Assembly: GCA_029834535.1 (NCBI GenBank)
Contig: JAQMWT010000034.1
Location: 164,901 to 228,900 of the forward strand
DNA from: Chrysophaeum taylorii
Lineage: Eukaryota > Sar > Pelagophyceae > Pelagomonadales > Pelagomonadaceae
Direction of reading: 5' to 3'
DNA length: 64,000 nt
In this document: in pieces, positions 2,885 to 52,073 of the stretch
Position numbering within the stretch: the first letter of the stretch is position 1
How the letters are laid out: every line of letters starts with the position of its first letter
The notes under the pieces: generated by a model
Told to the model about the DNA's origin: nothing
Seen by the model: the letters and a program-made list of their open reading frames with translations, nothing else
Databases searched by the model: none
Program-made: the position numbers and the translations under genes

Positions 2885-2925
<41 letters not shown>

Positions 2926-3444: not shown

Positions 3445-3468
3445 ATTTAGTTATAACACTCCCTTTCT

Positions 3469-4970: not shown

Positions 4971-4973
4971 GGA

Positions 4974-8729: not shown

Positions 8730-8781
8730 ACTGGCAATTATTATTACGGTATCAATAACGTCAAGATACGTATCTTATAGG

Positions 8782-9399
8782 ATGGGCCGGAGGCTCGTCC
8801 GCGGGGTCGTCGCCGCGCCCGAGGTGGTCGAGGCGGAGCGCGTCCTCGCGGTCGCGCTGGACCATCCCTCGCTCGGTCGGTCGCGGAGTTGGTTGTGGCG
8901 CGACACGCGAAGGGGCCTAAACGAGGTGTTTTTGCAGTTCGACTACGACAATGCGGGGGGGCTCGGCATTGCCAAGGTGCGTGCCCTCTTCATGCGGTAC
9001 GCGCCCCAGTTTACCGACGACGTCGAGGTTTTGTTTAATAAATTTTGCCGGAATCATTCGAGCCGTCGTCTCGAGTACCGCGATTTCGTGAGTTTGGTCG
9101 ACCACCAGCAGCGCCGCGGGAGGTTCGCGTGTTTCGAGCCCGCCGCCAAATCGGAGGACCTCATGCAGGATGCCTACGTTCAGGAGAGGTCCCGTGCGAT
9201 CCAGCGACTCCTCGACCGGATCGACCCGAGGCCGCCCGAGCCGGACGAGCTCAAGCCGCAATCCGAGCTTCCAAAAGCCGTCGTGGAGCCGTTTCGGGGG
9301 ATCCGCTCCTCGATCAACCTGCCCACCGACATCGGCAAGTCCCTGCTGATGGCGGTCAACGCCCACGAGGAAACCAAGAAGCTCGCCGCCCTCGAAAAA

Positions 9400-9437
<38 letters not shown>

Positions 9438-9594
9438 AAAGAGGCTCCAAAAGCAACAGCAGCAGCAGCAGCAGCAGGAGGAGGAGGGCCCGCCGGGAAA
9501 AAAGCAGCTCTCGACAACCACCGCGACGTTTTTGCCCCCCCTCAAAGCTCCAACAACAACAAGAACCAGGCGTCGTCGTCGAAAAAAACGATAG
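8782..9594 (+). CDS. EF-hand-like protein with poly-A/poly-Q tail
   Basis: 270 aa. I take the ATG at 8782, giving MGRRLVRGVV, rather than the longer open frame, because upstream sequence is antisense to a neighbour. Residues ~45-70 contain FLQFDYDNAGGLGIAKVRAL, an EF-hand-shaped helix-loop-helix. Loop position 5 is Ala and position 12 is Lys instead of the Asp/Asn and Glu needed for tight calcium binding, so it is probably degenerate. A second weak EF-hand-like unit follows (FCRNHSSRRLEYRDFVSLV). The C-terminal third has poly-Ala (GCC repeats), poly-Gln (CAG repeats) and a basic end. The stop is 22 bp before the next gene's ATG on the same strand. Confidence 0.65.
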
Positions 9595-11483: not shown

Positions 11484-11707
11484 ACTAACTAACTAACTTC
11501 AGACCTCTCCCGAGCATGGGAGCCAGGCCGGACCGACAGGAGCCAGTCCGGAATCACGGGCCTGTAGACGAGGAGCGCCGAAAGGTCGGTCGGCGGAGAG
11601 TGACCATCAAGCTTGTCGCCATGCGACGAGGAGACCGCGATGTGACTGACAACCAACTCGTCGATAACCTTCCGTCTTCGCCCCCCGGCCATACCCCGTC
11701 CCACTGC
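11484..11707 (-). mobile_element. S-family short element, 5'-truncated copy S1
   Basis: Starts (plus strand) with the ACTAACTAACTAAC tail followed by TTCAGACCTCTCCCGAG, and matches the other S copies up to CCCCGTCCCACTGC. The remaining ~130 bp head is missing, as expected for truncation at the head end. Confidence 0.85.
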
Positions 11708-28784: not shown

Positions 28785-29096
28785 TGCAGAGCATTTAGCA
28801 AGCAGTGGTAAGTCACCTGGGAAACCATCCCGTCTCATCGTGAACGTCTGGCAGGTTAATTCGGGGAATGAAAGGTATGTTCCCTATATCCTCAGAACAC
28901 GACAGGCGGCATCTAGCACTACACGAGAAAGGTTAAGTGTATAGTGCTACATACCTCGGGGCGCGCTAGACCATAATGATGAGCGTAGGCACAAATCAGA
29001 GGACTATTAGATTGTGTAAAAAGGAAGAAGAAGGTTAAGGAAGAGATTACGTTCTCAACGGACGGATAAGGGTAAGAGGCAGCAGATTTCTCTGCA
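28785..29096 (-). repeat. 3' LTR of element C
   Basis: 312 bp, TG...CA with 7-bp inverted ends (TGCAGAG/CTCTGCA); about 95 % identical by eye to 41352-41666. Confidence 0.88.
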
Positions 29097-29102
29097 CCCC
29101 CT

Positions 29103-29130
29103 CGAGATGTCTTTAAATGTCGACTGCTAA
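29103..29130 (-). repeat. R motif next to C's polypurine tract
   Basis: GTCTTTAAATGTCGACTGCT on the plus strand, the same ~24-bp motif that ends the R-family repeats. Confidence 0.75.
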
Positions 29131-29188
29131 GATGTCTTAAGTGCAAGGTGTGACTGTAGAGCATCTCTTGAGAAAGATGATGGTGAAT

Positions 29189-29245
29189 AAGAAAAAAAAA
29201 AAAAAAAAAAAGGAAAAAAAAGAGAAAAGAAGGAGAATACAGTCT
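29189..29245 (+). repeat. A-rich tract
   Basis: About 20 consecutive A followed by AAGG/AGAA-rich sequence. Confidence 0.9.
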
Positions 29246-29294
29246 TGATGATCTCAGAGGTCACATAAGAGGCATCAAGAGTGTAACAGGTGTC

Positions 29295-29825
29295 TTAGGG
29301 CTTGGACTTGGTGGAGCTGAGAGTCGACTTGACGCTTTTGAACAGAGCATTACGAAACACAAGTACGACAGACAGTGTGTTAAAGCTATCTGAGGTAGTG
29401 GACGTTACTGGTTCGAGGGTATCGGTATCGTCTTCGTCAGCTTCTACTGTCAGGCGGTGAACGCCAATAGTAGAATGGTGTGGTACCATACGAAACGTGA
29501 GTTCAAGCCCATTCAGCAGGATGGCACTAGTGAGAAGTTGTATGGTGTCCAGTTGGTTTTCCAAGTTAGACTCAGCGAACGGATCCGAGAGGATAGAAGG
29601 GTCTTCCAGTTCACATGCAAAGGGAATGCTTTGAATACACGAGAGCAAATTATCACGTAGACGATGGAGGTGATCGTCCGTGGAGGAATGGTTGGCGGCA
29701 TATTGATCATGAGCTGTTAGCGTTAAGCGAGACAGTAGCTCTGTGATCTTGAACAGTGTTACAAGCAGCACGTGCATTGGCTGTAGGAGGAAAGAGCCGG
29801 TTTTCCAGGGAGGTAATTGAAGCAA
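29295..29825 (-). pseudogene. 3'-terminal ORF of element C
   Basis: 176-codon frame between C's RNase H region and its 3' LTR. It reads LFKITELLSRLTLTA, then DHLHRLRDNLLSCIQSI, then TSAILLNGLELTFRMV, then an acidic TVEADEDDTDTLEPV and a basic tail. No family recognised and no clear TM/signal arrangement of an envelope protein. Same position as the B ORF at 28363-28784. Confidence 0.45.
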
Positions 29826-29893
29826 TGGCGCCTGTAGATCTGTGTGCAGAGATAGATTCTCAGCGCTAAGGGTGTTGACCTTGCGAATAGCGA

Positions 29894-30242
29894 TACTAAC
29901 TAACTAATCGCAACCTCTCCCGAGCATGGAGCCAGGCCGGACCGACAGGAGCCAGTCCGGAATCACGGGCCTGTAGACGAGGGGCGCCGTTGGTCGGCGG
30001 AGATGATCATCGCTTGTACGCCATGCGACGAGGACACCGCGATGTGACTGACAACCAACTCGTCGATAACCTTCCGTCTGCGCCCCCGGCCACCCCGTCC
30101 CACTGCAACGTTCCGGCTGCCAACCGGCCCGCCCGAGAGGCGAATAGGTGCCAACCTACGCCGGGAGGGCGATGCCCTCGCAAGGCTCAGGATTCATGAG
30201 ACACCGCCTCCATCGCAACCACGGTCGGCGATCAGGGTAAGG
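29894..30242 (-). mobile_element. S-family element, copy S2
   Basis: Tail ACTAACTAACTAA first (plus strand), head GGCGATCAGGGTAAGG last; several indels relative to other copies. Target duplication not clean. Confidence 0.85.
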
Positions 30243-30946
30243 GAATATATAGGCGAAGAGTTTCCTGGAGTTGTTCGACTTGTTGAAAAATTTACTCCAT
30301 GCATCATCAGGCGAGGCAGAAGGAGCGTGTGTCGATGGTGGTCAATTTCCAGAGCGACTGATGAGGGAGGCAGTAGTTGACGGCATTCGGTCAACCCGCT
30401 GTGCGAGTGGTGGGCATTTGTGTTTGGGAAGGTCTTGACGTTCGGCCGAAGTATAGGTGGGACCGAACATTACATCCAAGGTGATGGCGGCTTTGTATGT
30501 CTAAGGATGACGCAGTCGTCAAGCGTGTTGTACCCACGATCGGATAATATGAATCACATGGTACATTTGGTGGCTTTGAACGCGGCCTGATGTTTACGAG
30601 CTTGTGTTCGCTCGAGCGTTACCAAAGTTAAGATGCTCCATGTGCATCTTGCTAGTAAGCAGATCCAGTGCCTGTACAAAAATGGCGCACAGATTCTGTG
30701 GTTGCAACGGTTACTGATAAGACTAAATGAGCAAGTAATGACGTTGCGTCAGGTTTCTGGCCAAGATACATGTAAGCCCTTGGCATGATACGCGCATGAT
30801 TTGTTGCACGTATATGATCGGCTGAGCACCCATTGCAGGAAGGTTAAACGAGGTAGCATTACGTGCACGCACAAACGTTAGGTTGTATGGGCGCTCGATC
30901 GGTGTTGTGACAAGCACAAACAACAAAGCAGCGGCGATGTTGAGAT
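30243..30946 (-). other. Element C internal sequence, no intact ORF
   Basis: Between S2 and S3. Presumed 3' part of element C; only short frames and no recognised motif. Confidence 0.4.
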
Positions 30947-31299
30947 TCCTTACCCTGATCGCGGACTACGTGGTTGCGATGGAGGACGGTGCCCATGAAC
31001 CTTGCCTTGCGAGGGCATCCGCCCTCCCGGCGTAGGTTGGCACCTATTCGCCTCCCGGGCGGCCGGTTGGCAACCGAACGTTCGCAGTGGACGGGGTATG
31101 GCCGGGTGGCGCGATGGTCGTTATCGACGAGTTGGTTGTCAGTCACATCGCGGTCTCCTCGTCGCATGGCTACGCTTGATGGTCATTCTCCGCCGACCGT
31201 CCTTTCGGCGCTCGTCTACAGGCCGTGATTCCGGACTGGCTCCTGTCGGTCCGGCCTGGCTCCCATGCTCGGACAAGGTCTGAAGTTAGTAGTTAGTTA
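30947..31299 (+). mobile_element. S-family element, copy S3
   Basis: Head TCCTTACCCTGATCGC, tail GAAGTTAGTAGTTAGTTA. Flanked by a perfect 8-bp target duplication GTTGAGAT (30939-30946 and 31300-31307). Confidence 0.92.
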
Positions 31300-31307
31300 G
31301 TTGAGAT

Positions 31308-31983
31308 GGGAATAGCGACCATTCTTCTTGTGGTCGTCCTGTGAGATCTCACCACTTCAGTGGGGAGTTCATCAGGTGCTTGTGACTTCGAATCATGTGG
31401 TAGAAGCCAAAATGCAGGCTGTCCTAAATTATTAAGACACTGCGTACAATAGATGACAGTGGCAAGCGTTCAAGTTTGGGGCCTCTGTAGCAGCCAATGC
31501 TTAGCCAGCAGGCTAAAGCCTAAGTCGAAGTGGGTAGACGCATAGATATGGTCAAGTTCCACACAATAAAGAGTCAGCAGATTCATATATCGAGTTGAGT
31601 GCCGCGAGATTTCCGCTCGCATAACAGAGAGAGAAAGCGGCGTAGCAGGAGTACGCGCTCTCAAAGAGAATCCTCGTTCAATCAGGGGTAAACCATGTTA
31701 GGCCATCTTGAAAGCAGGGATTGCAGTGAAACAGGCTCAGCTGGTGTCGATGAAACAGTAGCAGCCTGGGAGGTAGTGGAGTGACAGTGGTCGCGGTTGT
31801 CGCTTGTGGTCGCGGGTTGTCGCTTGTGAACCAACTTGGGAGGCTCGCCGTGGAGAGCGAGCAAAATTGTCCTTCGAACGACTGAGATGCCACGGCCACG
31901 GCCACGGCCACGTGCCAAGAAAGACATGAGTGACACTCACGCGACACGTACCAAAAAATGTGGCAAAAGAAGGTAGGCCAGGG
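31308..31983 (-). other. Element C, region after RNase H
   Basis: Short minus-strand frames with low-complexity WPWPWPW and repeated CACGGCCACGGCCACGGC (about 31891-31910). No family recognised. Confidence 0.4.
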
Positions 31984-33910
31984 CTAGTTTGCAAGTTTAA
32001 TGACGTTGCGGTCACTAGGTTGCATATCTTCAATCCCAAGCCGATTGTCGTCAGAGGCATGATGCACGCCGAGTAGAGAGCGAAAGGTGGAGAACTCAGC
32101 CGGCTTAGTAAAACCATCCGCCACGTTCAGCTTGCCGGGAACATGATGGACTCGTATTCTTCTGGATGCTGTACTGATTTTAAACCATCTAGTCGACAGT
32201 GCCTTTGATCGAGAGGACCCTTCTGGGTTTTTAGAGGTGTGAACAGCGGCAGCATTGTCAGACAAGTTATAGGCGGCTTCTGATGCGCCATTCTCAGCAA
32301 GGGTTGTCATCAAAGTCAACAGGGTCAGCGGTGTTCTCACCATTAGCATTATTGACGTAGAAGGTGGGGTTGACAACAAAGGAGAGTTCCAACAGCAGCT
32401 TGCGTAGCCAAACGGCTTCATCAGCACAAATGCTGAGGGCAATCAACTCAGCTTCGTGAGTTGAGCAGGAGACAATCGGTTGAAGTTTGCTTTTCCAACC
32501 AAGGCAGTTGAAAAGATAGAAGACAAACCCGGTGGTAGCATTCTATCTTCCTGTGCTAAGGAAGGGGCATTGTCAGCGTCAACCATGGCAACTAGGGGGT
32601 CAAACTGTCCAGTAGATACATCCTGTGGTTGGTAGTCGACCACAGTGGATAGATCAATTCGATTAGCGGCACAGTGCGAAGGTGAGCTTCGGCATACCTT
32701 TAGGGTGAAACCAGAGGCGAAGTGAGCGGTTTTCCGGCTTTGAGGTAGCGTCGCTCTAGCATTTGAACGTGACGCGCTGTGGGTGCATACCACGCGAACA
32801 TCTGCCCAAGGCTTGCGAGAAGTCAGGTCTGCAGGCAACTTGCATGAACACCAGCTTGCCTGGGGTGGCAAAGTGCGAGTTGATGCGTACAACTCTGTTT
32901 CAGTGCTGGGAGTGCCATCTTTATACTTGAAGGACGATGACGAGGATATTTGAGGGGTCGTTGCTGCAAGACTGGGTGATCAGCGAGTTCATCCAGCTTG
33001 GCTTGCACATCCAGTGAAATGGAGCCGTCAGACGCGACACGCATGACTAGGCGGTATGGACAGGTTCAAACTGCTTACAGCATACCGTTTGTAGGGCATC
33101 CTGTAATTAGTACGAAGAGGGTCGTCATTGACAATAACAATGTCGTCTACAGACAGACTGCATACGACGAACTTGGCATGTGCGGATACTCGAGCATATA
33201 GGCAAGAGTCCGAATGCGGCGTTTGTAACCAAGGCTACGGAAAAGCCGTCTATCTCTTTGTTCCAAGGGATGGTGATTGCCTAAGTCCATAAAGTGACGC
33301 AGTTTCGGTGAACGTCGGCCCTTGTACTTAGCGTCATCGGGGTCGATAAGCTTGATGCCGTCTGGTAATTGAACATAGACATTGGCATCGATGTCAGACT
33401 GAACGCGTTCGGACGTCTGCATGGTAAACAGGCAATTGCTTGTATGCTGCAATAGCTAGTAGTACCCGGATTGCGGTCATAGTGGCCACGGGGCTGAAGG
33501 TACCAAAGAAATCGGCGCCAAGAGATGCTAGGAAGCCACGCAGTACAAGGCGAGCCTTGTGCTTAACTATTTGCCTGCAGAGTCGGTTTTGATCTTCAAC
33601 ACCATCTTGCTGTCAATAGGACGAGAGACACCATCGCGTAAGGAGAGTTTGAAGCAGCCAAAGCGGATAATGTCGTGGAAAGTTTATATTCGTCAATGGG
33701 AACGTCCGCTTCTTGGACCTTATATTCGTCAGGACCAACAGTGGCTGGTATTGCGTTTAGCGACGTTGCGGTCGAGGCAGTGTGCGCAACTTCGGGATAA
33801 GCGGACAGCGTCAGTAGGAGTAGTAGGGGCAGATTCCAGTTGATATGGATAGTAGGGTCGGTACGTAAGACCTGGGATAAACCCTGTAGAGACCAAAGGT
33901 ATTCCTCCAA
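31984..33910 (-). pseudogene. Element C reverse transcriptase and RNase H
   Basis: Copia RT broken by frameshifts. The catalytic LSVDDIVIVNDD (YVDD equivalent) is near 33140-33105, with HKARLVLRGFLASLGADFF near 33560 and a palm end (RPDLSQALG) near 32830. RNase H is recognisable near 32500-32380 as ATTGFVFYLFNC..., then THEAELIALSICADEAVWLR, where the Glu/Asp of the active site lie. Parts are spread over three frames. The RT keeps both active-site Asp, unlike element B. Confidence 0.8.
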
Positions 33911-34105
33911 GTCAGCCAGAGATGCAGAAGTAGCGCCAAACTCAGATGAGCCAGATCAATAAAGCTGGTCGGCGCCAGGTACGTGCGTGCCCCTAAGTGC
34001 CGAAGGCAGCAGCGTGTTCAGTGAACGCAGATAAAAGGGGCTGAGGGATAGGGCACGTAGGTGAGCGGGCAAGTAAGTCAGTACGCAACGGGAGAAGAAG
34101 ACGAG

Positions 34106-35858
34106 CTAACAACGCATGTTCCCCCTCTGAGCAGATAGCAGACCAGAGGATACCACCACGGAGATGAAGGGCGGAGAGGGCGGGAGACTTGAACGTAAGA
34201 AAGTGGTGGCGAAGATCCCAGCGAAAATCGGCGAGCTTGCACCAGCGGCTTTGTAAGCACCAATAGTAGACGCCTGTAACCGGCGGGCTCGGATAGTTCT
34301 CATAGAGGTGGCCTTGCGAGTGTTAGGCTGTTTGGAACCTGGGACAAGAATGAGGTCATCTTGTGCAAAAAGATCTTTGTAAGAAGGAAGCAAGGGCGGC
34401 GGTGACATAGAGCCAGATTCGTCGGCGGTAGCGTCAGAAGATGGAGAAGAGGCCGGGGTAGGGGACGAAGACGGAGGAGCGGAAGGAGGTGGGGAGTGCC
34501 CCCTCTGAGGATGAGAAGTCTTGGTCCCCCTCTGAATGACATGGTCTTGTATAGTGGTGTGGGGTGTGGACGAGAAAGGCGCGGAAGGAGCGTGTGGCGG
34601 AGGAGCTAGTTCAGGATCAGGAGTAGGATGCTGCAACATGTAGAGGAATTGCAGCTTGGACGAAACACGAGTTTGTCGAGACGACGTCAGCCATGGTCGA
34701 CGCGTGGGGAGACGAGCGGGTTTTGTGCGTTGGCGCAACAGAGATATAGATATTTGCGGCGGCACGGTTCCCACTTGTGGTGTTCATGGGGCCCAATAGA
34801 GGTAACATTCAGCGCCAAAAATCTTGAGCACGTGTTGGGGAGTGCTGAGTTGGTTGTAGAGTAGCTGTTGCGGACTCAGAATAGCATGATGAATGCGCTC
34901 GAGCGTGGCGTTCGGGAGAAGGTTATAGCTTTGAACGGTGTGCATCACCGCCCATGGAACATGATAGCGGGCTCCACGATCTTGGCGCCACGAAAGTGAG
35001 CATTAAGGAGAGAACGAAGGCGAGTTGAGGAGGCGGAGGCGATGAAACCGATGGCAGACTCAACTTCAAAGTTAAAGTGGTGCATGTACGGCGGGAGGCA
35101 ATGAGTTGAATGCCCTTATCGACGCGGTACGGGAGGTAATGTGTGCTGGCTAGAATGCATCGGAGTAGAGGGTGCGCACACAAGTCATACACAAAATCCA
35201 GAGCTTGAGTGAACTCCGTGGCGTTGGTGGTGCGTGTAAAGTACACCAAGAGAAATTTCGAAATGAGTTCCTTGAAGACGATGATATGTGTGAAGCCTCC
35301 CCATTCGGATGGGATGGTCACATAGCCGCCGTCGCACGCCCAGACTTCACCGGCTTTGTGGGTTTGCTCGAAAGAGGGCTTGGTCGCATTGAAATGCTTG
35401 TGCGGGTGGCGCTTGTTGTGTGCGATGCAGTCGGTGCATAAGTCGCGATGGTATGTCAGAAGCAGATCCAGGGCGAGCAATGTTGGGGGCCTTGGCAGCG
35501 ACGTTGTCGGGGCAGTGATGCACCGGTGAAAGCGATTGCACGTTCTTTGGCATTGAGATATTCGGTGGATCCGTGTGCGAGGGACTTACGAGGAATTGAT
35601 GAGCGGGAATGTGCCGTTTGCGCCGAACATCGAACTTGAGTTCGGTGTCTAAGGCAGGGGAAGGCGGTGCGTCGTCATCCTGGTGCGCAGCAGGGTCACT
35701 TGAGGTGCATCCTATCACGAGTAAGCGAGAGTATCTTCGTAGGACGAAGATATAGTTTAACGACATTTCGGTCAAGCAGTTGCTGGAAATAGACATCATA
35801 AAAGCTTGTGCTAAAGACAAGGTATCTGTGCTGCACGTGGTGGAGGCTTGGTCGACGG
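34106..35858 (-). pseudogene. Element C integrase
   Basis: Zinc-binding end CTDCIAHNKRHPHKH near 35430, then the catalytic-core start EVWACDGGYVTIPSEWGG (first catalytic Asp in ACDGGY instead of the usual TDxxGP) and HIIVFKELISKFLLVYFTR. The region 34774-34106 is the proline/serine-rich linker between integrase and RT. Frameshifted and degraded. Confidence 0.75.
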
Positions 35859-37668
35859 TCATGAAATTGATACATAGCATTTCTTCGTCACGGCAGTATG
35901 TTGGAAGGTAGGGTCCAACATAAGGGATTTAATATCGGCGACGATGAGCGAAAGGTGCTTGTACAGAGTGCCGTACGTACCGGCAGGCAGAGCATTGCTG
36001 CGCATATCACAGCAAAGATCATGGCGTAGAGACAAGAGGAAGGATTCCTGTTGCTTGGTGTGGTTGTTAGCACGAATCAACTCCGGTCGAGTGGGGTAGC
36101 GTAATTTCCCGTTGCGAGGGTCGAGTAAAATAATATTGGCATACCCTCGGACGGTTGGCAATGGAGCAAGCATGGTGGATTTTAGAGCCGAGGTTGCGGT
36201 CACTTCCACGAAGGTACCCTATATAGCGACTACGAGATAAGTGGTGATCTTCCAGAGCAAAAGAGAATCCTTGTAATCGAAAGAGTTGTCGGTGGCCTTG
36301 TAGGTAAGGCAGCCAGGCATCACAAGCGAGCATCTGGACAAGAGCTTTTGTATGGCGGTGCCATAGGTGGCAGCGGAGCCAACTTGGGGAAGGGCTTGGA
36401 CTATCCACAAGTAACCCATAAACGGCTCCAAATATATGGACCTGTCCCGGTCGCGGGGGATGTCGGAAGCAGTGAACGTATACGTGCCTCCAAAGGCGTT
36501 GATGATTTTTTTTTGGTTGGTGGTGGCGTTCTCTATGGTGAGGTTGCCGTCGAAATGGTGGCCACCAGTTAAGAAGTAGGCGTTGTGTGATGTTGATGAC
36601 GTTGTAAGTAATAACCTGTGTGACGGTTGGTTAGTTTCGAAAACAGTTATGTAATAGGACACAGGAGTGGGTGAGTTAGTATGTAAGCTGGCAAACAGGT
36701 TATAGAAGATTGTAAAAACCTTGACGTGTATAGGATGTGCTGCATTGGGTAATGGCTCCATAGAGGAGCGTTTAAAGCACAACTGATGATAAGTACACTC
36801 GGATTGAACAGAGTGAGTACGTTGTTCGTGAGCCTGTTGTGAGTGAAGGCGAAGCAGTAACATATTGAGGGATTCAAGGTCAGCCATAGTAAGCTGAGCA
36901 GAACCTGTGCGAGAGTAAGGTGCAAAAGTTTTAGGAACGGGGATATATGGAGGATCGGGGAACACCCGGATCCAGTCTTTGGATACGTGGTTAGGTAGCC
37001 AAAGGCGCTTGGGAATAGCTTGTAGATCATCCACGATCTTTAGGAAGGGGCGTGGATGGAGGATGGGCCACGATGATAGTTTAATTGGTCCAGTAGAATA
37101 TCTGCGTGCGATGCATATCCATCTTTCTCTAGATTGGTAGTCGCCACAGAGGTAGGTCGGGAACCTATCAACAACATCGACACAGTAATCAAGTGTAGTA
37201 TGGATAAGGTTGGCCACTGTGATGTGGTCTTGATGACAGTATTTATGCGGAGGCGTCATCTCAGCCAGTAGTACCAAGGGCTGGAGTAGCTTGATGACAG
37301 ACAACATGCTGTCGAAAAGAGAGTCGTCCAGCAGGCTGTGTAAGTCTTCCGTCTTTTGCTGTTTTAGTAAATTCCTGTTTGTGCAGGGAGGAGTGATCTC
37401 AATTATATCACAATAGAATGTGCGCCTTTCCTCTGGTGAGATTAGGTGAAGATGGTTAATAAAGGCGGGGAGATTCAAATAATAGTACAGTAGGAAAACG
37501 GTGGCGTAACATACGAACAAGCGTATCATCAGACTCAACAACAACTTTTACATTGATATTTAAGCCTAAGTCATTAGTGGCTTGAGACAGGAACGCCGGA
37601 GTTGACAAACCAGAACAAAGTAACATGACAGAGGGTTTGCGGAGATTGGACTCTTGTGAGAGAAACAC
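35859..37668 (-). pseudogene. C5-cytosine DNA methyltransferase-like domain in element C
   Basis: Lies between protease and integrase. Motif I (SAM binding) LLCSGLSTPAFLSQATNDLG near 37620, motif II Glu in VKVVVESDDTLVRML and HRFPTV near 37550-37510. A frame change follows, then motif IV DIIEITPPCTNRN with the catalytic Pro-Cys near 37400, a motif VI-like VLLAEMTPP (ENV replaced) near 37260, motif VIII GDYQSRERWICIARR near 37130, motif IX KLRYPTRPELIRANN near 36080 and motif X SNALPAGTYGTLYKHL near 35980. This order and spacing fit a DNMT/Dcm-type enzyme with a ~300-residue target-recognition region between VIII and IX. At least two frameshifts make this copy inactive. Confidence 0.8.
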
Positions 37669-37683
37669 TGGACGTGAGAGTAG

Positions 37684-38583
37684 TCAGGTTAATGGCTGCG
37701 TGTTTTGCTGAACAAACTTGTTCTGTTTCCGAAGATTGAGAACCAAAGGGCGAATCCACGGCCGATCTGGTAAAACTCGTTGGAGTAGGTAGTTGTAGTA
37801 TGCCAGTAGATCCCTGTTTTCATGGTATCGCTTGAGGGGAAATGCAAGGGAGCGAAGTTCCAGCCGCTTGTCGCGCGCGATGTTGTAAGTGAGACAAGGG
37901 AGAGCGGGTAAATTAGCTGCTACATAATGTATGGGTATACGTACATCTTTGTCTATGCGGCTTGTGACAGCGCTGAGCTTTGGCTCAGCTCGATCATTGA
38001 ACACAGTGGTCAGGTTCGTCTGGTTCCACTCGAGCATGCTCAGGATAGCGAGATGTCGGTCATGCACTGGCTGAAGACATAAAGCGAAGTCGATCTTAAC
38101 ATAGCCAACTTGTGGATGATCTGGTAGGGGAATAACGATGTTGCGGGTTAACATCATGTGTGATGCCCGTTGTTGTCCTGTCGCCGTCTGAATAACAATC
38201 GGCGCGTATTTGGAGTCCAATGGAATTATATGATTGGGTATTGCGAAATCGTAGGTGGATATCAATGAGATGGTAGCACAAGAGTCAAAATATAGAAAAG
38301 AGCAATGTGGAGGGACACTGTTTACAATCATGTAGTTGGTGAGGAAGGCGTTTTCCGAATGTGGGCAAGTAGTGGAGAGGCTGGCTGTAAAGAAGTTCTT
38401 CAGCAATAACAGATTCGTTGGAATAATGATCGGTTGAACAGGTGGTGATGGTTCGTCAGCCTCATCAGCCATGCCGTGCTTTTCGTCAAATGACGATAGC
38501 GAAGTATCATCGGCATCCCTTTTGGTTTCGGCTTGTGATGGTAGGTTGAGGGCAGATTGGACCTGTGAAGATAGCGAGGACAA
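37684..38583 (-). pseudogene. Element C aspartic protease region
   Basis: 299-codon frame with CSFLYFDSCATISLIS near 38290; the Asp-Ser-x-Ala-Thr signature resembles the copia retropepsin D-S-G/C-A-T. Beta-rich sequence follows (TATGQQRASHMM, GYVKIDFALCL). It ends just upstream of the methyltransferase segment in a different frame. Confidence 0.65.
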
Positions 38584-38630
38584 TAATGCTGGTGGTAAAG
38601 CCGAGATGGCGGAAACGGTAAAGAGGTTAG

Positions 38631-38995
38631 TCCCTTACCCTGATCGCCGACTGCGGTTGCGATGGAGGACGGTGCCTCATGAATCCTGAGCCTTGCGAGG
38701 GCATCCGCCCTCCCGGCGTAGGTTGGCACCTATTCGCCTCCCGGGCGGGCCGGTTGGCAGCCGGAACGTTCGCAGTGGGACGGGGTATGGCCGGGGGGCG
38801 AAGACGCAAGGTTATCGACGAGTTGGTTGTCAGTCACATCGCGGTCTCCTCGTCGCATGGCGACAAGCTTGATGGTCACTCTCCGCCGACCGGCCTTTCG
38901 GCGCTCCTCGTCTACAGGCCCGTGATTCCGGACTGGCACCTGTCGGTCCGGCCTGGCTCCCATGCTCGGGAGAGGTCTGAAGTTAGTTAGTTAGT
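38631..38995 (+). mobile_element. S-family element, copy S4
   Basis: Head TCCCTTACCCTGATCGCC, tail GAAGTTAGTTAGTTAGT. Perfect 8-bp target duplication GAGGTTAG (38623-38630 and 38996-39003). Inserted between gag and protease of element C. Confidence 0.95.
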
Positions 38996-39003
38996 GAGGT
39001 TAG

Positions 39004-40921
39004 ACACAGTATTGGAAGGATTACCCTGTGTTTTTGTAGTAGGAGGAGTTGTCTTTGGGGTGGGAGCAGTAATAGCAGTATGGTGTTGTGGCTCCACGTA
39101 GTTTAACGACTTTTCGGTCGAGGATAGATGAGCGTCTACATCACAAATGATGTCTTCTGCAAACATGAGCTGTTCGTTTAGACGAAGGAAACTACTGTTG
39201 TCCTCAGTAGATGTCGTTGGCAGAATGTCAGCTGATTGTAATAGAGTCTCAAATAACTTGTCGATATTGTGCTGTAGCTGAGCCGTGGTATCATTATCTG
39301 TCACATGCTTCGTGAGTTCGCTACACTGTTCTCGCAGGGTGTTTAAGGTGTGGTTTCTTCGATCTTATAATTTCATGTTAGACCGAGAGGACCTGTCAAA
39401 GGTGCGGGGGTAAATTGGACGGTCATGGGACTGTCCGGCGGTTTTCTTGGTGACGTAAGAATCACCAGGACGATAATACGATAAATCGCTGCGAGAGAAA
39501 GGCTGGCGAGCATCATTTGAGTTGCGCAAGCGTCTAGCATTAAACGTGGAAGATGTACCAGGTTGGGACGAAGTGATGAAGGCGAGTGTGTTAGCAGTTT
39601 GAGTCAGACTTTTGTCTGATGAGTCCAAAGTGTGTGTAAGTAGTAACTTTGGCTTTGGTTGAGATGATAAACCTTCGACATAGGGTTGCCAAGAAACAGG
39701 GCGTTCTAAACGTCTTTTGTTCGACCCATTTGATACGACATTGTAAAGGTCTAATGCGCATTCTAAAATGTAGCTAGGGTTGGTAGGGTGGCACAATCGT
39801 TCAGCTTATGGCACAGGTCGAGATGAAGGTCGGGTTTCGTACATATAACACCAATCTACCCAACCACGATCGTAACGGTTGTTGCTGGTATTATCGGCAT
39901 AATGCCGATGTATCTCTTCATAGATTTTCCTGCAAAGAGTGCCAAGGTCGAATTGAAGGTCAGTCTCTTCCTGGTTAAGTTGGTAAGAGATTTGCCTAAA
40001 TGCTAGGACAGCTTCGATAAATACATGGACATACCAGTTAGGATTATAAACAACAGAGTTAAATTGCTGTTTCAAATAGGACACATCAGTAGTCGTAACA
40101 GACTCGTAGTGACTAAAGGCGATGAGCATAATAGCTCGAGCCTTTCTGGGTAAATAACTTTTGTTGTATACCTCATTGATGGCGGGCCAGGCCGCAAGTG
40201 CCGGTTTTCCAACACTTTCAAGATTGAAGTAAGTATGCAAGAATGTAGCGTACGTGTTCTGGTAAGTGTGCCAGTCAGCTGCAGTTAACGAAAACATGGT
40301 AACCGGGGCACGAACACGGGTGTCGAAAGCTAGTGCCTTCGGGTGCGCGCGATTTAAGATTCGTTCCTCTTCTAAGAAACGAGCATTGATTTCAGGACGT
40401 AATGCCTTGACTTCATAGTCGTAAAAGACAGTAGCTAGCTAAGCTACTCCTGCATCAGGTAAGTGGTGGAAAGATTCGTTGGTGAAATGCCATTCCTGAT
40501 ACTCAGGGGGTAATTCATCAACAGCTAAACGGAGATCAGCAGCCCTATCGGTCTTCCATTCGAGGAAAACGCGATCGAGAATTTGATTCCGGAGGATCTC
40601 TTAATCCTTGCATGACCGAGTATATGCTTCGTACGAGTCGTACTCGAGAAAAGCATCGGCATGACTGGACCGTAATAATTGCTTCATGTGTTTGATTTGC
40701 AAAGATACCTTGCGGTTCTGAAGCTGAAACCGATTTCCTAAGTTAAGAAACTCAACTACAGGAGCTTCGAGCTTCAATATATCCGCACCTGTGGTCGCCT
40801 TGGGTGCGGCTCGTGCTGCGTGTTCTGCCATAGCAGTTGACGGGGAACCTGTGGGTTCAGTCACGCAGTTGACACTGTCTAGACATTCTAAGGGGGTCTG
40901 TCTATCGGTGTCTATGTACAC
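39004..40921 (-). pseudogene. Element C gag region
   Basis: Several minus-strand frames. The N-terminal part contains KVSLQIKHMKQLLRSSHADA and DSYEAYTRSCK, equivalent to KVSLQIEMLGRHMTSPYVDA in element B. A gag-like helical part at 40297-39806 includes YNPNWYVHVFIEAVLAFRQI and EETDLQFDLGTLCRKIYEEI. No CCHC knuckle recognised. Stops between frames show decay. Confidence 0.65.
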
Positions 40922-41337: not shown

Positions 41338-41351
41338 CTGGGCCCATAACC
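41338..41351 (-). promoter_or_regulatory. Primer-binding site of element C (half-tRNA iMet type)
   Basis: Minus strand GGTTATGGGCCCAG immediately after the LTR's terminal CA. It is complementary to the anticodon stem-loop of eukaryotic initiator tRNA-Met, the PBS type of Drosophila copia. Confidence 0.85.
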
Positions 41352-41666
41352 TGCAGAGCATTTAGCAAGCAGTGGTAAGTCACCTGGGAAACCATCCCGT
41401 CTCATCGTGAACGTCTGGAAGTAGTTAATTCGGGGAATGAAAAGGTATGTTCCCTATATCCTCAGAACACGACAGGCGGCATCTAGAACTACACGAGAAA
41501 GGTAACGTGTATAGTGCTACATACCTCGGGACGCGCTAGACCATGATGATGAGCGTAGGCACAAATCAGAGGACTATTTGATTGTGTAGAAAGGAAGAAG
41601 AAGGGTAAGGAAGAGATCACGTTCTCAACGGACGGATAAGGGTAAGAGGCAGCAGATTTCTCTGCA
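41352..41666 (-). repeat. 5' LTR of element C
   Basis: 315 bp, TGCAGAG...CTCTGCA, direct-repeat partner at 28785-29096. Confidence 0.88.
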
Positions 41667-42866
41667 ATATCAGAAGATGGCTCTCCAGTTTTATAAGTGG
41701 TTGATGGTGACATCGGTGTAGAAGTGGGACGTAACTGCATTAAAATGGGGTACTCTTCGAACAATGCATCAAGTTTAGCTTGACAGTCCAGTGATATAGG
41801 ACCGTCAGTAGTACGCGTGATGCGCATGCCTAAGAGAGTATGAACTTCTTCAAAGGTGTCGACTGAGTATTCCTTTTTCAGGGCCTGCTGGAATTCACGA
41901 CGTAGAGTTTCCGAAGTGCAAGTGATAACGACGTCATTCACTGAGAGTGTGCAAATTTAAAATGTAGCGTCAGCTAGGACTTTAGCGTAAATGCACGTAT
42001 CTGTTCGGAAGCGTGTATAGCCTAAAGAATCAAAGAAGCTATTTATAATAATCAAAGAAGCTATTTATAGTTTGATTCCGAAGGGCAGGACTTTGTCGTA
42101 ATCCATACAGAGATTTAAGTAGTTTTGGGAGACGACGGCTTTGATATTTGGTATCTTCAGGATCGAGAAGGTAAATACCTTGTGGCAGTTTAACATAGAC
42201 ATGAGAGTCTATGGGAGCTTGAACAAAAGCGTTAGGTACGTCGACATGGTAGACGGGAAGTCGCAGATGGGCTGCTAGCGCCAGAACACAACGGATGCCA
42301 GTAAGCTGTGCCATAGGGCTGAATGTGTTGAAAAAATCAGTGCCCAGAGAGACTAAGAATCCTCGTAGGACCAGGCGTGCTTTATGCTTGAGATATTGAT
42401 CGGCAGCATTGGTTTTTATACGTAGGACGAGGCGGGTGTCAATAGGCTTTGAGTTGACCATTGGCAACGCAAGTTTAAAGCAGCCAAACTTAACAATATC
42501 AAAAATCTCTTTGGAGATAGCGGAGATATAAGCCTTACGATCAGCGTCTGAGAGACGTTTGAGGCAGCTCAACTCATATTCATCAACTTTGATATCTTTG
42601 GCTTGAATTTTGTATTCGTCCGGACCAACAGTGCTGGGGTCGTGAGCCGTCGTAAGATGGGTAATTGCGTAAGAAGCGACCTGATCAGTAGTATGAGCAT
42701 AATCGGGGTCTTCGACAAGTTGAACGATTAGTAGAGGAGCATCGCCAAAGTGGGTCTCAATGTAATGAGATTGCACGATGATGTGGTCTAGGATGGCGGA
42801 GAGGTGAGGCTTGGAGGCAACATAAGAAGCGTCATTATGATCCAAAATGGAATGGGGTGTGAGCAA
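41667..42866 (-). pseudogene. Element B reverse transcriptase (truncated)
   Basis: Copia RT: RLVLRIKTNAADQYLKHKAR, LVLRGFLVSLGTDFFNTFSP, PVYHVDVPNAFVQAPIDSHV, LKSLYGLRQSPA. The palm motif near 41935 reads SVNDVVITC, so the first Asp of the YxDD box is Asn. A 24-bp tandem duplication (AATCAAAGAAGCTATTTATA) lies at about 42025-42070. The RT is cut at 41667 by the LTR of element C; no RNase H of B is seen. Confidence 0.82.
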
Positions 42867-42878
42867 AGCACAAGCATA

Positions 42879-45064
42879 TTAAGCGGTAGGAACTTGAAAA
42901 GCGTGAGCATGTTCGGAAATGAGATGAACGAGAGCACGAGGAAGGTGAAAGTCTGTGAGGCTGAAGTCGTCGAAGGGATGAACAGGAGTGACATCCGGCA
43001 ATGGATGGCTAAGGCCCCCATGACACAGAGCGGAAGAAGAGTGAGAAAGCGCTTGGTGAACGTGATGATGAAGGGATTGTGTGTATTCCCCCTCTGGAGG
43101 TATAGCCGTCCAGTGGATGCCATGAGCAAGATGAAGGGAGTGGAGGGTGGGGTCGCAGAAAGTTATATACTGCTTGGAGAGGTCATACTTGAAGTCGGCA
43201 AGCGCACCACCAGCTTGTTTGTAAGCGGCAACAGTTGGCGAAGCAATGCGAGTAAGAACGTCCTTGAGATTAGTCTTGCGACGAGGTTGAGGGTGATGAG
43301 GACCACGGGTGAGACGGAGGACATCCTGGGAATAGAGAGACCGATAAGATGGTAGAAGGGGCAAAGTGTTGGAGGACACGTCAGATGGAGGTGTGGTGGC
43401 GGAAGCAGCGGGTGCAGAGGCAGCTGGAGCACATGCGGGAACGGGAGAGGGAGCATGGGTAGAAGAAGAAGGAATCCCCCTCTCGTGTTCAGTGTCGGTG
43501 GACATAGCATTCCCCCTCTGCGCCGCATCATTGGGGGTGCTGTGAACAGAGAAGGGAATGTCAGGTGGAGGTGCGGGAGGTGGATGTTGTTCATAATCAG
43601 GAGGATTTTTTGAAATAAGATGAGGAAAGGTAAGTTTAGAGGAGACACGGACTTGGCCGTTTTCAGGATTAAGGACAACATCGGCTAAATGATTAACATG
43701 GGGTGTTATTAATGGGTTTATGACATTAGCACCACATAAGTAGATGTAAGGACGACATCGAGGCACATATTTATGAAATTCGTTGGGTTCCAAATGCAAA
43801 TAACAAACACAACCAAATGGTTTGAGGTAGTCCCGTTGGGGAACATTACATTGGTCCAACAAATCTTGTTGGGGCTTAGGACTTTATTATAAATACGTTC
43901 GAGGGAAACATTAGGAAGGAGATTATATGATTGGACAGCATGTATAACAGACCACGTGTAGTGTGGTGCCGGATCTGTTAGGGGGTGACCTTTATAGGAA
44001 ACATTAAGCATATGCCGCAGTCGTGTAGACGCGGCAGTTGCAATATGACCAACAGCGGCTTCTACTTCATGATAAAAACATGTAAGTAAGGGGGGGAGGC
44101 AGGCATATTAATACCGTGTTCAACACGAAAGGGAGTGGTAACGTGTTGTGATGAGTAAGGGTTAAACGAATCACAATAAATTTGTTTTAGTTGTACACGA
44201 ACATAAGTAGAACAAAAATTGCGGACAAACTCGAGGGCGTTACAAAATTCGTTAGAATTAGTAACTAACTAACTAACTTCAGACCTCTCCCGAGCATGGG
44301 AGCCAGGCCGGACCGACAGGAGCCAGTCCGGAATCACGGGCCTGTAGACGAGGAGCGCCGAAAGGTCGGTCAGCGGAGAGTGACCATCAAGCTTGTCGCC
44401 ATGCGACGAGGAGACCGCGATGTGACTGACAACCGACTCGTCGATAACCTTCCGTCTTCGCCCCCCGGCCATACCCCGTCCCACTGCGAACGTTCCGGCT
44501 GCCAACCGGCCCGCCCGGGAGGCGACTAGGTGCCAACCTACGCTGGGAGGGCGGATGCCCTCGCAAGGCTCAGGATTCATGAGGCACCGTCCTCCATCGC
44601 AACCGTAGTCGGCGATCAGGGTAAGGGAATTAGTGCTACGACAAAAGTACACTAACAAAAATTTAGAAATGAGACACTTAAAGACAATGATATGGCGAAA
44701 GGATCCCCATTCCGAGAGAACAGATACGTAACCACCGTCACATGCCCAGGCTTCACCAGGTTGAAAATTTTTCGAATGATGGTTGCTTGGTAAGATGGTG
44801 TGGATGAGGAAAGCGTTTTTTATGGATCGTACAATCCACACAGAACTTACGGTAGGGTACATCAGAAGGATGATGTCCCGGACTGGCAATAACCTGAACA
44901 GCTTTTATAGCTTGAGAATCGCTAGAATGGTGGGTGTTGTGAAAATTGGTAGCACGTTGTTGCGCATCTCGAAATGCGAGGGTGCCCCTGGCATGTACTT
45001 TTCTATCAAAGGGTGCATGCTTCTCATGGAGCTGCCTTGGAGTTATGAGAGGAATGTGTCTCAC
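42879..45064 (-). pseudogene. Element B integrase
   Basis: His/Cys zinc-binding part with FCVDCTIHKKRFPHPHH near 44830, core start EAWACDGGYVSVLSEWGS near 44730, and HIIVFKCLISKFLLVYFCR up to the S5 insertion. Beyond S5, the RYxPFG-type region DYLKPFGCVCYLHLEPNEF lies near 43820, and a long proline-rich linker to RT extends to 42879. Closely similar in order to element C. Confidence 0.8.
44263..44626 (-). mobile_element. S-family element, copy S5
   Basis: 364 bp in B's integrase. Perfect 8-bp target duplication GAATTAGT (44255-44262 and 44627-44634). Plus strand reads AACTAACTAACTTCAG first and CGATCAGGGTAAGG last. Confidence 0.96.
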
Positions 45065-45167
45065 TTTAGTAGGAGATGATGTATCTGCGGATGCAGTGTT
45101 AGAGAGGAAGACGTGAGCTACTGAATCGAGGTGAAAAGGTAGATGTTTGGGATTAGAGGTAAGATCG

Positions 45168-45890
45168 TCACAACATGAAAAAAATTTTATTAGAAATGTA
45201 TAACATTGTAATGGAACTCTGGTGTAAAATTAAGGATTTGTCTGTGGAAAATATATGGGTGAAAAAGGTCGACCTGTAATTTTTGGTTAGTGAAGCATGA
45301 TCGGGGTCAAAGGATGGTGATAACGTTAATTTACGCAAGTCATAGACAAACTGACACAAATGTTTATAAATTATATGATATGTTCCAGCCGGAATAGCAT
45401 TAGCAATTATGTCACAGCATAAGTCCGGGGACAAAGACAAAAGAAAATTGATTTGGTGCGCTGTGAAGTTATTGGCGCGTGCCAATTCGCGAGTTGAGTA
45501 GTGTCGAATGCGATCGAGTCGTGGATCGTACACGAGCATATTAGCATATCCACGAATGGTAGGAGTGGGAGTGTATATAGAATGAACTTTGGCACCCATC
45601 TTCCTATCACTTGATGTAATAAAGCCAAGGTATCTGCTTTGAGACAAATGCATGTCACTTAGAGCAAAAATTTTATCGATAAATTCGAGACGATTTTCCT
45701 GAGGGTAGAAAACGAAAGAATTGTGAAGCACAGGTGAAGTATATGAAACCAGTGTTTGTACTAGACGACGCGTGTCTTGATATTCGTTATTATGATGGTA
45801 TGCTTGACAAAGCCAAAGAAAACCGGTGACAAAGCCAAAGAAAACCGGTAACAGGATCGAGAGAAGCAGTCTTATCGATTCCGGTGTCAT
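45168..45890 (-). pseudogene. Methyltransferase C-terminal part in element B
   Basis: ~240 codons homologous to the C-terminal methyltransferase segment of element C: LSQSRYLGFITSSDRKMGAK, RGYANMLVYDPRLDRIR, motif IX HYSTRELARANNF, DLCCDIIANA and motif X NAIPAGTYHIIYKHL. Motifs I-VIII are absent because the element is deleted between gag and this point. The hydrophobic start (LLLSILLPVFFGF) aligns with SIYLEPFMGYLWIVQA in C and is part of the domain, not a signal peptide. A 23-bp tandem duplication (ACAAAGCCAAAGAAAACCGG) lies at about 45808-45852. Confidence 0.75.
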
Positions 45891-45920
45891 GTGTTAGGAA
45901 AGTATAGGTTTGTGTTAGGA

Positions 45921-46198
45921 GTAGGTTGGCACCTGTTCGCCTCCCAGGCGGGCCGGTTGGCAGCCGGAACGTTCGCAGTGGGACGGGGTATGGCCGGGGG
46001 GCGAAGACGGAAGGTTATCGACGAGTTGGTTGTCAGTCACATCGCGGTCTCCTCGTCGCATGGCGACAAGCTTGATGGTCACTCTCCGCCGACCGACCTT
46101 TCGGCGCTCCTCGTCTACAGGCCCGTGATTCCGGACTGGCTCCTGTCGGTCCGGCCTGGCTCCCATGCTCGGGAAAGGTCTGAAGTTAGTTAGTTAGT
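45921..46198 (+). mobile_element. S-family element, copy S6, head-truncated
   Basis: Begins at GTAGGTTGGCACCTG (about 85 bp of head missing) and ends GAAGTTAGTTAGTTAGTA. No clean target duplication. Confidence 0.9.
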
Positions 46199-46237
46199 AT
46201 CTAATAAAGTGAGAACACGCTTAACACCCTCATTTAA

Positions 46238-46613
46238 TTAGGGACGAACAAGATTATATGACTCTTGAAAGAACAGTCGTTCGAGACTATTACGAACATC
46301 GACTGATAGTTGATGTGAAGAATTAACGTGAAATTTCGTTGATTTTTTCAGCTTCCCATTGAGCGAAAATGACACCAACTTCGTGTTCGAGAAGTTGGTT
46401 CTACTCCGGAGCATTCCGGGTGTAAGCGTCATACGAATCGAAGCAGAATAACGCGTCCACGTATGGACTTGTCATATGTCTGCCAAGCATCTCAATTTGG
46501 AGGCTTACTTTGATTGAGTTGTCTTGGAAGCGCAATCCAGCGTTGGGTTTATCAACGAGGATTTGTTCCTGCTTATAAATATCCGTGGTGGATATTGGTT
46601 TTGGTTTTGACAT
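46238..46613 (-). pseudogene. Element B gag N-terminus
   Basis: Frame from ATG at 46613 with KVSLQIEMLGRHMTSPYVDA and DSYDAYTRNAPE, homologous to the start of element C gag. Soon out of frame, then cut by a deletion and S6. Confidence 0.65.
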
Positions 46614-47101: not shown

Positions 47102-48840
47102 TCACGAAGTGAGGTAACGAGCACGAAGCCGGAGGAAGGAAGGAGCTTCCGTACGGCGGGTGAAAATATCGCTAAGGGTGTCAAGACGAGTAATGTGTTG
47201 GAGATTAATGATGTGGTTGCGATGATATTCGGCGGTGCTGTAAAAGCAAATGTCAAGATGGCGGGTGCGCCGTGTGAGACATTGGAGACGGACTTGGGTG
47301 ACGGTGGTGCTATTATCGACATACATTGGGACCGTGTGACGAGGGAGATCAAAGTCATCAAAAAGTTTGAGAAGCCAAGAGAGCTCAGCAGTAGCAGCGT
47401 AAAGAGCGAGCAATTCAGCTTCAAAAGAAGAGCGAGCAAGTAAGTACTGCGAGCGGGAGCAGTAGGCTATCATAGAGCCAGCAAGGAGAAAACAAAAACC
47501 AGTTGTAGAGTGGCGGTCATCAGGGTCGTCGGCCCAGCTGGAGTCGGAATAACCACAGAGACGAAGGGTAGAATCGCGACCAAGAATAAGGGCAAGATCC
47601 TGAGAACCGTTGAGATAACGCAGAGTGTGGGATAAAGCGTGCCAGTGGGGTTTACCAGGATTGTGGGAAAAACGCGCACACTGATTGACGGACCAAGTGA
47701 TATCAGGGCGAGTCATGATGGAGATGAAGAGGACACAGCCAACAATACGGCGAAAAGGGATGCGTGCCATGAAAATGTGATCTGGAGAGCCAGGAGTAGG
47801 ACAATCAGCCGCAGAAAGATGAAGACCTTTGGGAGCGGGAGTGAGTTCGGGTTTACTGTTGATGAAGCGATGTTCGGTAAGGATTTCACGGATAGCATGG
47901 GATTGGTCAAGAGTGAGGGTTCTCCGAGGGCGATCACGCGTAATGCGAAGACCAACGTAAGAGGTGAGATCAAGTTCATTGACGTCAGTGAAAGCGCGGA
48001 AACGGAGGAAAAAGGCTTGGTAATGGCCAATGCAATGACGAGGGTGCGCCACAAGAAGATCATCAACGACCAGAACGAGACGTAGAAGGACGGTAGAATT
48101 GAGCACGAGCTTGTAATGGCAAGTGTCACCAGATCCGCGGACGAAGCCACAGTCATTGACGAGAAAGCGTGCCAAATAAAGCCACCAATTACGACAAGCT
48201 TGTTTGCAACCATACCAAGAGCGACGGAGCGTGTAAATGATTTTGGAACCATCGGTGGGTTGGCGAGGAGCATAGCCTTCGGGTGGCCAGACATAGATGT
48301 CTTCGTCAATGGGAGCTTGAATAAAAGCGGAGCTGACATCCAACTTGTGCAAATCCCAGTCATGAACAGCGACAAAGGTTAGAAAGAAACGGATCGTGAC
48401 GATGTTGGCAACCGGTGAGTAGGTGTCATGATAATCAATGCCGTGAACCTGGGTGTAACCGCGGACGACGAGGCGAGCCTTGTACGATTTGAAGCGGCCA
48501 GAGTCATACTTCTTGCGGAGGATCCACTTGAGGGTACAAATGTTGCCAGAAAAAATGTCGAAGGAAGGCGAACCACATCCCAGCAACCAAGCTGACCAAG
48601 AGAGCTGTATTCTTTAGCGATGGCTTGCAACCAGCCAGGACGCTCAGGATTGGTCGGAGCTAAAGCTTCACGTAAATGGGTGGAAGTAATAGTAGTTTCG
48701 TCAAGGTCTGAATACTGAGACATTTCTTCGGAAGCAGAGTAATAAACGTGTGCATGGGGATCAACAAGGGTGTTAGCTAAACAAAGGGGAAGGAAGACAT
48801 AATGAACTAACAAACGAAAGCTAACAGAAGAGACATACAA
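47102..48840 (-). pseudogene. Element A reverse transcriptase/RNase H
   Basis: The RT start PERPGWLQAIAKEYSSLGQL lies near 48630 in one frame. After a frameshift near 48550 a 495-codon frame continues: YKARLVVRGYTQVHGIDYHD, DVSSAFIQAPIDEDIYVWPP, catalytic LVLVVDDLLVAHP, TRPDITWSVNQCARFSHNPG, then RNase H with GYSDSSWADDPDDRHSTTGF and SSFEAELLALYAATAELSWL and the terminal TRRTRHLDICFYSTAEYH. Nearly intact except for the one frame break; the most recently active-looking pol in the window. Confidence 0.88.
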
Positions 48841-51483: not shown

Positions 51484-51844
51484 CCTTACCCTGATCGCCA
51501 ACAGCATGGTTGCGATGGAGGACGGTGCCTCATGAATCCTGAGCCTTGCGAGGGCATCCGCCCTCCCGGCGTAGGTTGGCACCTATTCGCCTCCCGGGCG
51601 GGCCGGTTGGCAGCCGGAACGTTCGCAGTGGGACGGGGTATGGCCGCGGGGCGCAGACGGAAGGTTATCGACGAGTTGGTTGTCAGTCACATCGCGGTCT
51701 CCTCGTCGCATGGCGACAAGCTTGATGATCACTCTCCGCCGACCCACCTTTCGGCGCCCCTCGTCTACAGGCCCGTGATTCCGGACTGGCTCCTGTCGGT
51801 CCGGCCTGGCTCCCATGCTCGGGAGAGGTCTGAAGTTAGTTAGT
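51484..51844 (+). mobile_element. S-family element, copy S7
   Basis: Head CCTTACCCTGATCGCCA, tail GAAGTTAGTTAGT; in B's leader, 79 bp from element A. No clean target duplication seen. Confidence 0.9.
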
Positions 51845-52073
51845 GTAGGAAAAATTTTAATTTTATTGGCTATGCGAGTGCATATGACCAGTGGCCGACC
51901 CAACTCGGTCACAAACCAAATTAACTCGTGGTCAAATACCGTCACACAACAGATATGTACAGTAGACTACCGCCAAACACATTGTCGCATTGTACTCCAT
52001 TGTACTCGTAATCAGGCGGAAACTGATCACTTCATTATACGGACAACACAGTTGGGCTGACACACCTACGCAT

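Follow-up and report, generated by a model that had tools for sequence, protein, structure and literature searches.

The window, i.e. the whole 64,000-nt stretch of the Chrysophaeum taylorii assembly GCA_029834535.1 that was analysed (contig JAQMWT010000034.1, positions 164,901-228,900), carries on its minus strand an LTR element bounded by positions 28785 and 41666, with LTRs of 312 and 315 bp that are identical at 302 of 315 aligned positions (Table 1). Along this strand, tblastn places gag, protease, a cytosine DNA methyltransferase (DNMT)-type domain, integrase and reverse transcriptase (RT) in this order. The preliminary description of this DNA had proposed such a domain from a series of short motifs between the protease and the integrase of a copia element. 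All of the motif strings that it quoted were found on the minus strand, in the order claimed and in two frames, and the placement held up as well, with a D-S-C-A motif upstream and a C-x-x-C motif plus a weak rve match (E=0.0044) downstream. Since LLCSGLSTPAF and VVVESDD lie in a different frame from the remaining motifs, and since positions 36238-36261 are again out of the main motif frame, this copy of the domain is broken; the element as a whole is decayed, with frame changes in the DNMT region and a 367-bp repeat within its gag-protease part.

The element and its relatives, i.e. families A (that of the window copy), B and C described below, are Ty1/copia elements, as judged by an RVT_2-type RT, the order protease, integrase, RT, LTRs of the form TG...CA and a primer site beside the 5' LTR. 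Integrase precedes RT both in the family B frame and by tblastn, and the protease is placed by motif and position only. The primer-binding site, GGTTATGGGCCCAG, is complementary to 14 bases of a CAU anticodon arm, and a 20-base pattern around this arm occurs at nine places in the genome; at the one anticodon-arm locus examined ARAGORN called no tRNA gene, and the tRNA is termed only Met-tRNA-like. In Drosophila copia, the primer is a half-tRNA Met. A 5-bp target-site duplication was not seen at the window element (flanks CAATG versus ATATC), a single copy that may be recombinant.

Table 1. Features of the window copy, of the family C remnant and of the repeat; positions are those of the window
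Feature	Position	Strand	Basis
5' LTR	41352..41666	-	pairs with 3' LTR, 302/315
Primer-binding site GGTTATGGGCCCAG	41338..41351	-	complementary to Met-tRNA(CAU)-like anticodon arm
Gag, assigned by position; without Pfam match	39689..40885	-	94% to same frame of another copy
Gag end / protease frame, split by repeat insert 38629-38995	37687..39685	-	tblastn 91-95% to another copy
Protease-like motif LYFDSCATISL (D-S-C-A)	38263-38295	-	motif and position; without Pfam match
In-frame TGA, protease/methyltransferase frame junction	37684..37686	-	TGA in 19/19 mapped family A loci
Putative C5-cytosine methyltransferase domain, motifs I to X, at least 2 frames	35859..37683	-	motifs; paralogues; profile-profile
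LLCSGLSTPAF (motif-I-like)	37591-37623	-	direct reading
VVVESDD	37525-37545	-	direct reading
IIEITPPCTNRN, motif IV with catalytic-type Pro-Cys	37371-37406	-	direct reading; invariant in 8/8 aligned members, three families
LLAEMTPPH	37245-37271	-	direct reading
CGDYQSRERWICIARR (motif VIII)	37101-37148	-	direct reading
LRYPTRPELIRANN (motif IX)	36063-36104	-	direct reading
SNALPAGTYGTLYKHL (motif X)	35952-35999	-	direct reading
Integrase: C-x-x-C motif 35400-35438 and rve core	34693..35450	-	PF00665 E 0.0044 (below cut-off); tblastn; motif
RT / RNase H region, several frames, decayed	31984..34300	-	tblastn with family A frame and family B RT; DNA homology to copy on contig C42
Polypurine tract, sense ...CTCGAGGGGG adjoining 3' LTR	29097..29107	-	direct reading
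3' LTR, ends TGCAGAG...CTCTGCA	28785..29096	-	302/315 identical to other LTR
Family C remnant: RT, integrase, DNMT motifs IX-X (45168-45893), gag-like piece (36% identity)	42039..46610	-	RVT_2 E 1.5e-26; tblastn
~365-bp repeat copies	11484-11707, 29895-30244, 30948-31297, 38629-38995, 44264-44628, 45918-46198, 51484-51848		

Between RNase H and the 3' LTR lies a long stretch without large frames (29107-31900), which resembles another copy in pieces at about 79-88%. The window contains seven copies of the ~365-bp repeat, two of them shorter than the others; they lie in both orientations, several are within the copia elements, and the repeat probably represents a small non-autonomous element. 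A further copia family is represented at 48113-48529 by an RT fragment (34% to the family B RT).

Families A, B and C and the identity of their Pol domain

The genome searched was the 70.8-Mb, 697-contig assembly of C. taylorii, the published assembly being given as 71 Mbp in 702 contigs in the available text of PMC10366177, where a transcriptome is mentioned as well. Family A occupies at least 95 places including the window (97 rows of matches, 76-100% identity), a lower bound reached with 95 of 1458 first-look candidates scored. The 442-aa window frame is matched at at least 94 other places at 76-96% identity, some of the matches being partial. Chance capture by a single broken copy is ruled out by this number of paralogues. 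Of the 97 family A rows listed, 59 are free of stops within the matched part, and the longest open frame listed for the family measures 1691 aa; in one copy the DNMT match and the RVT_2 match each lie in a frame listed with this identical length, behind an in-frame TGA. For family C, the best 150 of 151 matches to the piece with motifs IX-X comprise the window's own and 149 further places, and the longest frame without a stop in the match, among the matches listed, is 1720 aa. Between families A and C, the compared sequences of the DNMT region share 46-48% identity.

The surroundings of the RT agree with this arrangement. At 66 of the best 150 RVT_2 places (1670 candidates), a DNMT of the A or C type lies upstream on the same strand within 6 kb, while it lies downstream at none and nearby on the other strand at two; this count takes the A/C-type matches among those listed and leaves family B aside, and the remaining 84 places are uninformative. 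The upstream DNMT belongs to family A at 32 of the 150 places, with a median gap of 2.9 kb.

Family B was found directly by PF00145, which matches 57 places in the assembly. The best of these (3.8e-17) is a host DNMT2-like gene, whose protein is 100% identical to CTAYLR_008533. A B-type integrase is present within 6 kb downstream on the same strand at 38 of the 57 places and upstream at none; 18 of the places were read, with 16 in frames containing at least one B motif string and two being host genes. At one family B locus (L012), a single frame of 1951 aa behind a protease-like motif contains PF00145 (E=1.1e-7, residues 349-475), rve (0.0061, below cut-off) and RVT_2 (PF07727, E=1.6e-38), and PF00145 ranks second among all Pfam families, after RVT_2.

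Family B is the only one of the three to reach PF00145 directly, i.e. above the Pfam curated cut-off. TIGR00675 (NCBIfam) matches two family B sequences below that model's curated cut-off, and a profile search of the PDB with family B gave a chain named Cytosine-specific methyltransferase at E=0.026, with an unrelated chain at 1.2. Single-sequence searches of Pfam (PF00145 included) and NCBIfam with family A and the window pieces gave no DNMT match, those with the family C domain gave no match, and the family A profile found nothing in the PDB. The preliminary description had counted a negative profile search against a methyltransferase. We do not take it as a refutation because of four lines of evidence: the PF00145 matches of family B, the single frame at L012, the profile-profile scores as compared with shuffles, and the columns invariant across families A, C and B.

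In hhalign comparisons with 200 column shuffles per pairing, the joint profile of families A and C scored 32.6 against 102 DNMT relatives, a DNMT2-rich set (shuffle maximum 27.5, 0/200), family B scored 42.1 against the same relatives (shuffle maximum 25.9, 0/200), and A+C scored 27.1 against B, a small margin over the shuffle maximum of 26.7 (0/200). The probabilities given by hhalign itself were low to modest for these three pairings, i.e. 4%, 51% and 3%, respectively. The profile-profile alignment puts the motif IV Cys on Cys. An alignment of eight sequences from the three families, three of them from family B, has Pro-Cys, the Glu of motif VI, the last Arg of motif VIII, the Pro-Thr before motif IX, the Glu of motif IX and N-A-x-P of motif X invariant in 8/8. 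Other positions vary between the families: full ENV in motif VI is found only in B, with EMT in A and C; QxRxR of motif VIII is full in A and C (QSRER, QARER), and B is without the Q and the first R; and the second Gly of motif I is absent from A and C. Motif IX (R-x-x-[ST]-x-x-E, the R being replaced by G in one of the three B sequences) and motif X (N-A-[LIV]-P) are present in A, C and B, and a long target-recognition-like region (TRD) separates motifs VIII and IX.

It is very improbable that these are chance look-alike motifs in a copia-specific Pol spacer domain without methyltransferase kinship. Such a view could draw on the missing single-sequence profile matches of families A and C, on the protein-database search, in which no homologue of the A or B domain was found at E <= 0.01 among the scored candidates (the search needs shared 5-residue words and similar length, and distant or differently cut relatives may escape it), and on a single-sequence AlphaFold model of one unaltered window frame, which was uninformative (pLDDT 32). 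Scans of viral contigs likewise gave no relatives of the domain. Against it stand the direct match of family B to PF00145, second only to RVT_2, the three-way profile support, and motifs IX-X, for which the score of A+C against B was equalled by 0/120 shuffles. We show here that several Ty1/copia families of C. taylorii encode a homologue of C5-cytosine DNA methyltransferases in Pol, between protease and integrase, and profile-profile comparison together with the invariant motifs supports the family A domain as a very divergent relative of these enzymes.

Whether A/C and B share a single uptake is a separate question. The same place in Pol and 464 columns aligned in register argue against independent acquisition of methyltransferase domains by A/C and by B, as does the comparison of motifs IX-X, which beat all 120 shuffles, and we regard two separate acquisitions as fairly unlikely. 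However, A/C and B share only about 20% identity, and the core and the TRD taken alone (A+C versus B) were equalled by 57/120 and 13/120 shuffles, respectively; the case for a single uptake is therefore weakened for these two parts, in which the three-way split of the domain fails against shuffles.

Selection on the domain and expression layout

Ratios of dN/dS were obtained from pairwise comparisons among 11 family A copies without stops, which had been selected from 20 loci because their frames are open. The DNMT domain gave 0.28 (55 pairs), its core 0.26, the TRD-like region 0.31 and motifs IX-X 0.14 (54 pairs), the lowest value of the domain, as compared with 0.54 for the linker (45 pairs) and 0.32 for the integrase, for which there were few pairs (10). 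Single family A pairs exceed a ratio of 1 in the core, the TRD and the linker. Ten family B pairs ranged from 0.13 to 0.63, and dS between A and C was saturated. The DNMT domain is shown by these values to be kept by purifying selection about as strong as that on the integrase. The copia lineage with a C5-methyltransferase-type domain that had been proposed from the window alone is supported by the 1951-aa frame of family B, the 1691-aa frame of family A and the conservation of the domain under purifying selection.

Where the protease frame meets the DNMT frame, all 19 mappable family A loci (of 21 examined) have a TGA codon; these loci represent 18 distinct copies, the window's among them, since two of the loci are one and the same copy. 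CTA directly follows the TGA in 17/19, and the preceding codon varies among the copies. Several of these copies have a frame break close to the TGA, on one side or the other. Two loci could not be mapped: the first aligns with a gap at the site, through which its frame stays open, and the second lacks a junction match. Both family C copies that were read have the junction TGA as well. Common ancestry of the copies accounts for some of this uniformity. A CUA after the UGA makes a context known to be leaky, and Tca2 of Candida albicans, another Ty1/copia member, offers a parallel, although its flanks were not sufficient for readthrough in yeast. Programmed readthrough between the protease and DNMT frames is therefore likely, considering the conserved TGA, the varying codon before it, the leaky UGA-CUA context and the Tca2 parallel. 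In family B, the gag (1900-3633) and pol (3597-9452) frames of L012 overlap in different phases, which suggests frameshifting where families A and C have the TGA.

Methylation trace, host enzymes and a proposed role

Between 17 nearest-neighbour pairs among 20 loci, C/T or G/A differences were 1.31 times commoner at CpG (276/5564) than elsewhere (800/21116). The observed/expected ratio of CpG was 0.93-0.99 for stretches of families A and C and 1.00-1.05 for loci of family B; two further stretches of the window gave 1.37 and 1.16. These figures amount to a weak mutational trace of CpG methylation, for which codon use may be the cause.

The second host gene among the PF00145 places (L002, 1006-3537, and L055) has a full PF00145 match (7.9e-18) followed by SNF2 (8e-14) on the same contig and in the same frame. 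A DNMT domain joined to an SNF2 domain is the domain composition of DNMT5. This DNMT5-like gene resembles families A and C in being a C5-DNMT with a motif I that opens with C-S-G, and differs from them in its SNF2 domain in frame, its canonical ENV and its direct match to PF00145; its hhalign comparison with A+C (P 0.33) is no proof of the origin of the domain. DNMT5a has been reported in pelagophytes, according to the accessible part of PMC9998398.

We consider it probable that these copia elements carry a C5-DNMT homologue that is under selection, is made in Pol and marks DNA, the marks being copied by the host DNMT5-like enzyme. The domain would be produced within the Pol precursor, which in families A and C would require bypass of the in-frame UGA, and would then be cut out by the protease or be left fused to the integrase. 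Packed along with RT and integrase, it would methylate cytosines of the element's own double-stranded cDNA or of the integration site, and the marks would subsequently be copied by the host DNMT5-like enzyme. New insertions would thereby be silenced or tolerated early, limiting the damage to the host and allowing the family to be kept. That the element may methylate its own DNA to manage silencing is what we infer, as the preliminary description had.

Alternatively, the domain may have descended from a C5-methyltransferase and no longer methylate, serving as a DNA-binding or base-flipping module, e.g. in steering the integrase or in aiding the handling of cDNA. Loss of the motif VI Asn and absence of the second motif I Gly in A and C, loss of most of QxRxR in B, the extreme divergence and the weak CpG mutation trace would fit such a module, which is nevertheless unlikely in view of the Pro-Cys, motif-VI Glu and N-A-x-P that are invariant in eight sequences of three families, and of motifs IX-X having the lowest dN/dS of the domain.

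Returning to an active element-borne enzyme, one may speculate that new cytosine methylation in C. taylorii stems mainly from it, i.e. that the parasite writes and the host copies. This arises because the 18 of 57 PF00145 places that were read comprised 16 of family B, one DNMT2-like (tRNA) and one DNMT5-like (copying), and we rate it as doubtful. Regardless, C. taylorii is practical for asking why an element would carry an enzyme for its own silencing, since it combines a small genome (71 Mb), copies with long open frames and a DNMT5-like gene.

Comparison with known systems

According to the available text of PMC5890265, DNMTs are carried by LINE and DIRS elements in Symbiodinium and by a Gypsy element in Klebsormidium, in agreement with the precedents in dinoflagellates and charophytes named in the preliminary description, and the abundant Copia elements of Symbiodinium are without any DNMT domain. 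A sentence in the accessible part of PMC12344493, citing the 2018 paper, places DNMT3 members in LTR Copia and DIRS elements; it may be a slip for Gypsy, the 2018 paper naming Gypsy, DIRS and LINE. Stramenopiles appear in a pooled list of hosts for Dam- or Dcm-type methylases of Gypsy and DIRS elements in the parts seen of PMC6338049, and a DNA transposon of a brown alga carries a different, N4/N6-type methyltransferase (PMC12477816, accessible part). Apart from the sentence in PMC12344493, no copia element carrying a DNMT in this position was seen in the open-access papers searched, most of them as listings and some by passages, and the main text of the C. taylorii genome paper, in the portion available, makes no mention of transposons, repeats or copia (PMC10366177).

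Among the described systems, KnitGypsy-Dnmt3 of Klebsormidium nitens is alike in being an LTR element with a C5-DNMT in the Pol polyprotein ORF, under purifying selection and without introns, and unlike the copia families here in being Ty3/Gypsy, Dnmt3-related and from a streptophyte host (PMC5890265, available text). SymbioDIRS-Dnmt3 and SymbioLINE-Dnmt likewise comprise many retrotransposon-borne DNMT copies in a marine alga, whereas they belong to the DIRS (tyrosine recombinase) and LINE classes (same source). DIRS elements with a Dam-like adenine methyltransferase share an accessory DNA methyltransferase in a retrotransposon polyprotein, but this enzyme is structurally unrelated to cytosine DNMTs (PMC5890265 and PMC6338049, accessible parts). 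Tca2 has an in-frame UGA between two coding frames of a retrotransposon, as do families A and C; in contrast, its UGA lies between gag and pol, its flanks alone gave no readthrough in S. cerevisiae, and the available text mentions no methyltransferase (PMC2194720).

Retrotransposon uptake of a cytosine methyltransferase would extend, with the families described here, from LINE, DIRS and Gypsy elements to Ty1/copia, and to a pelagophyte. Considering the hundreds of listed places in pelagophyte copia elements, such uptake would therefore appear as a recurrent strategy rather than as an oddity of two lineages.
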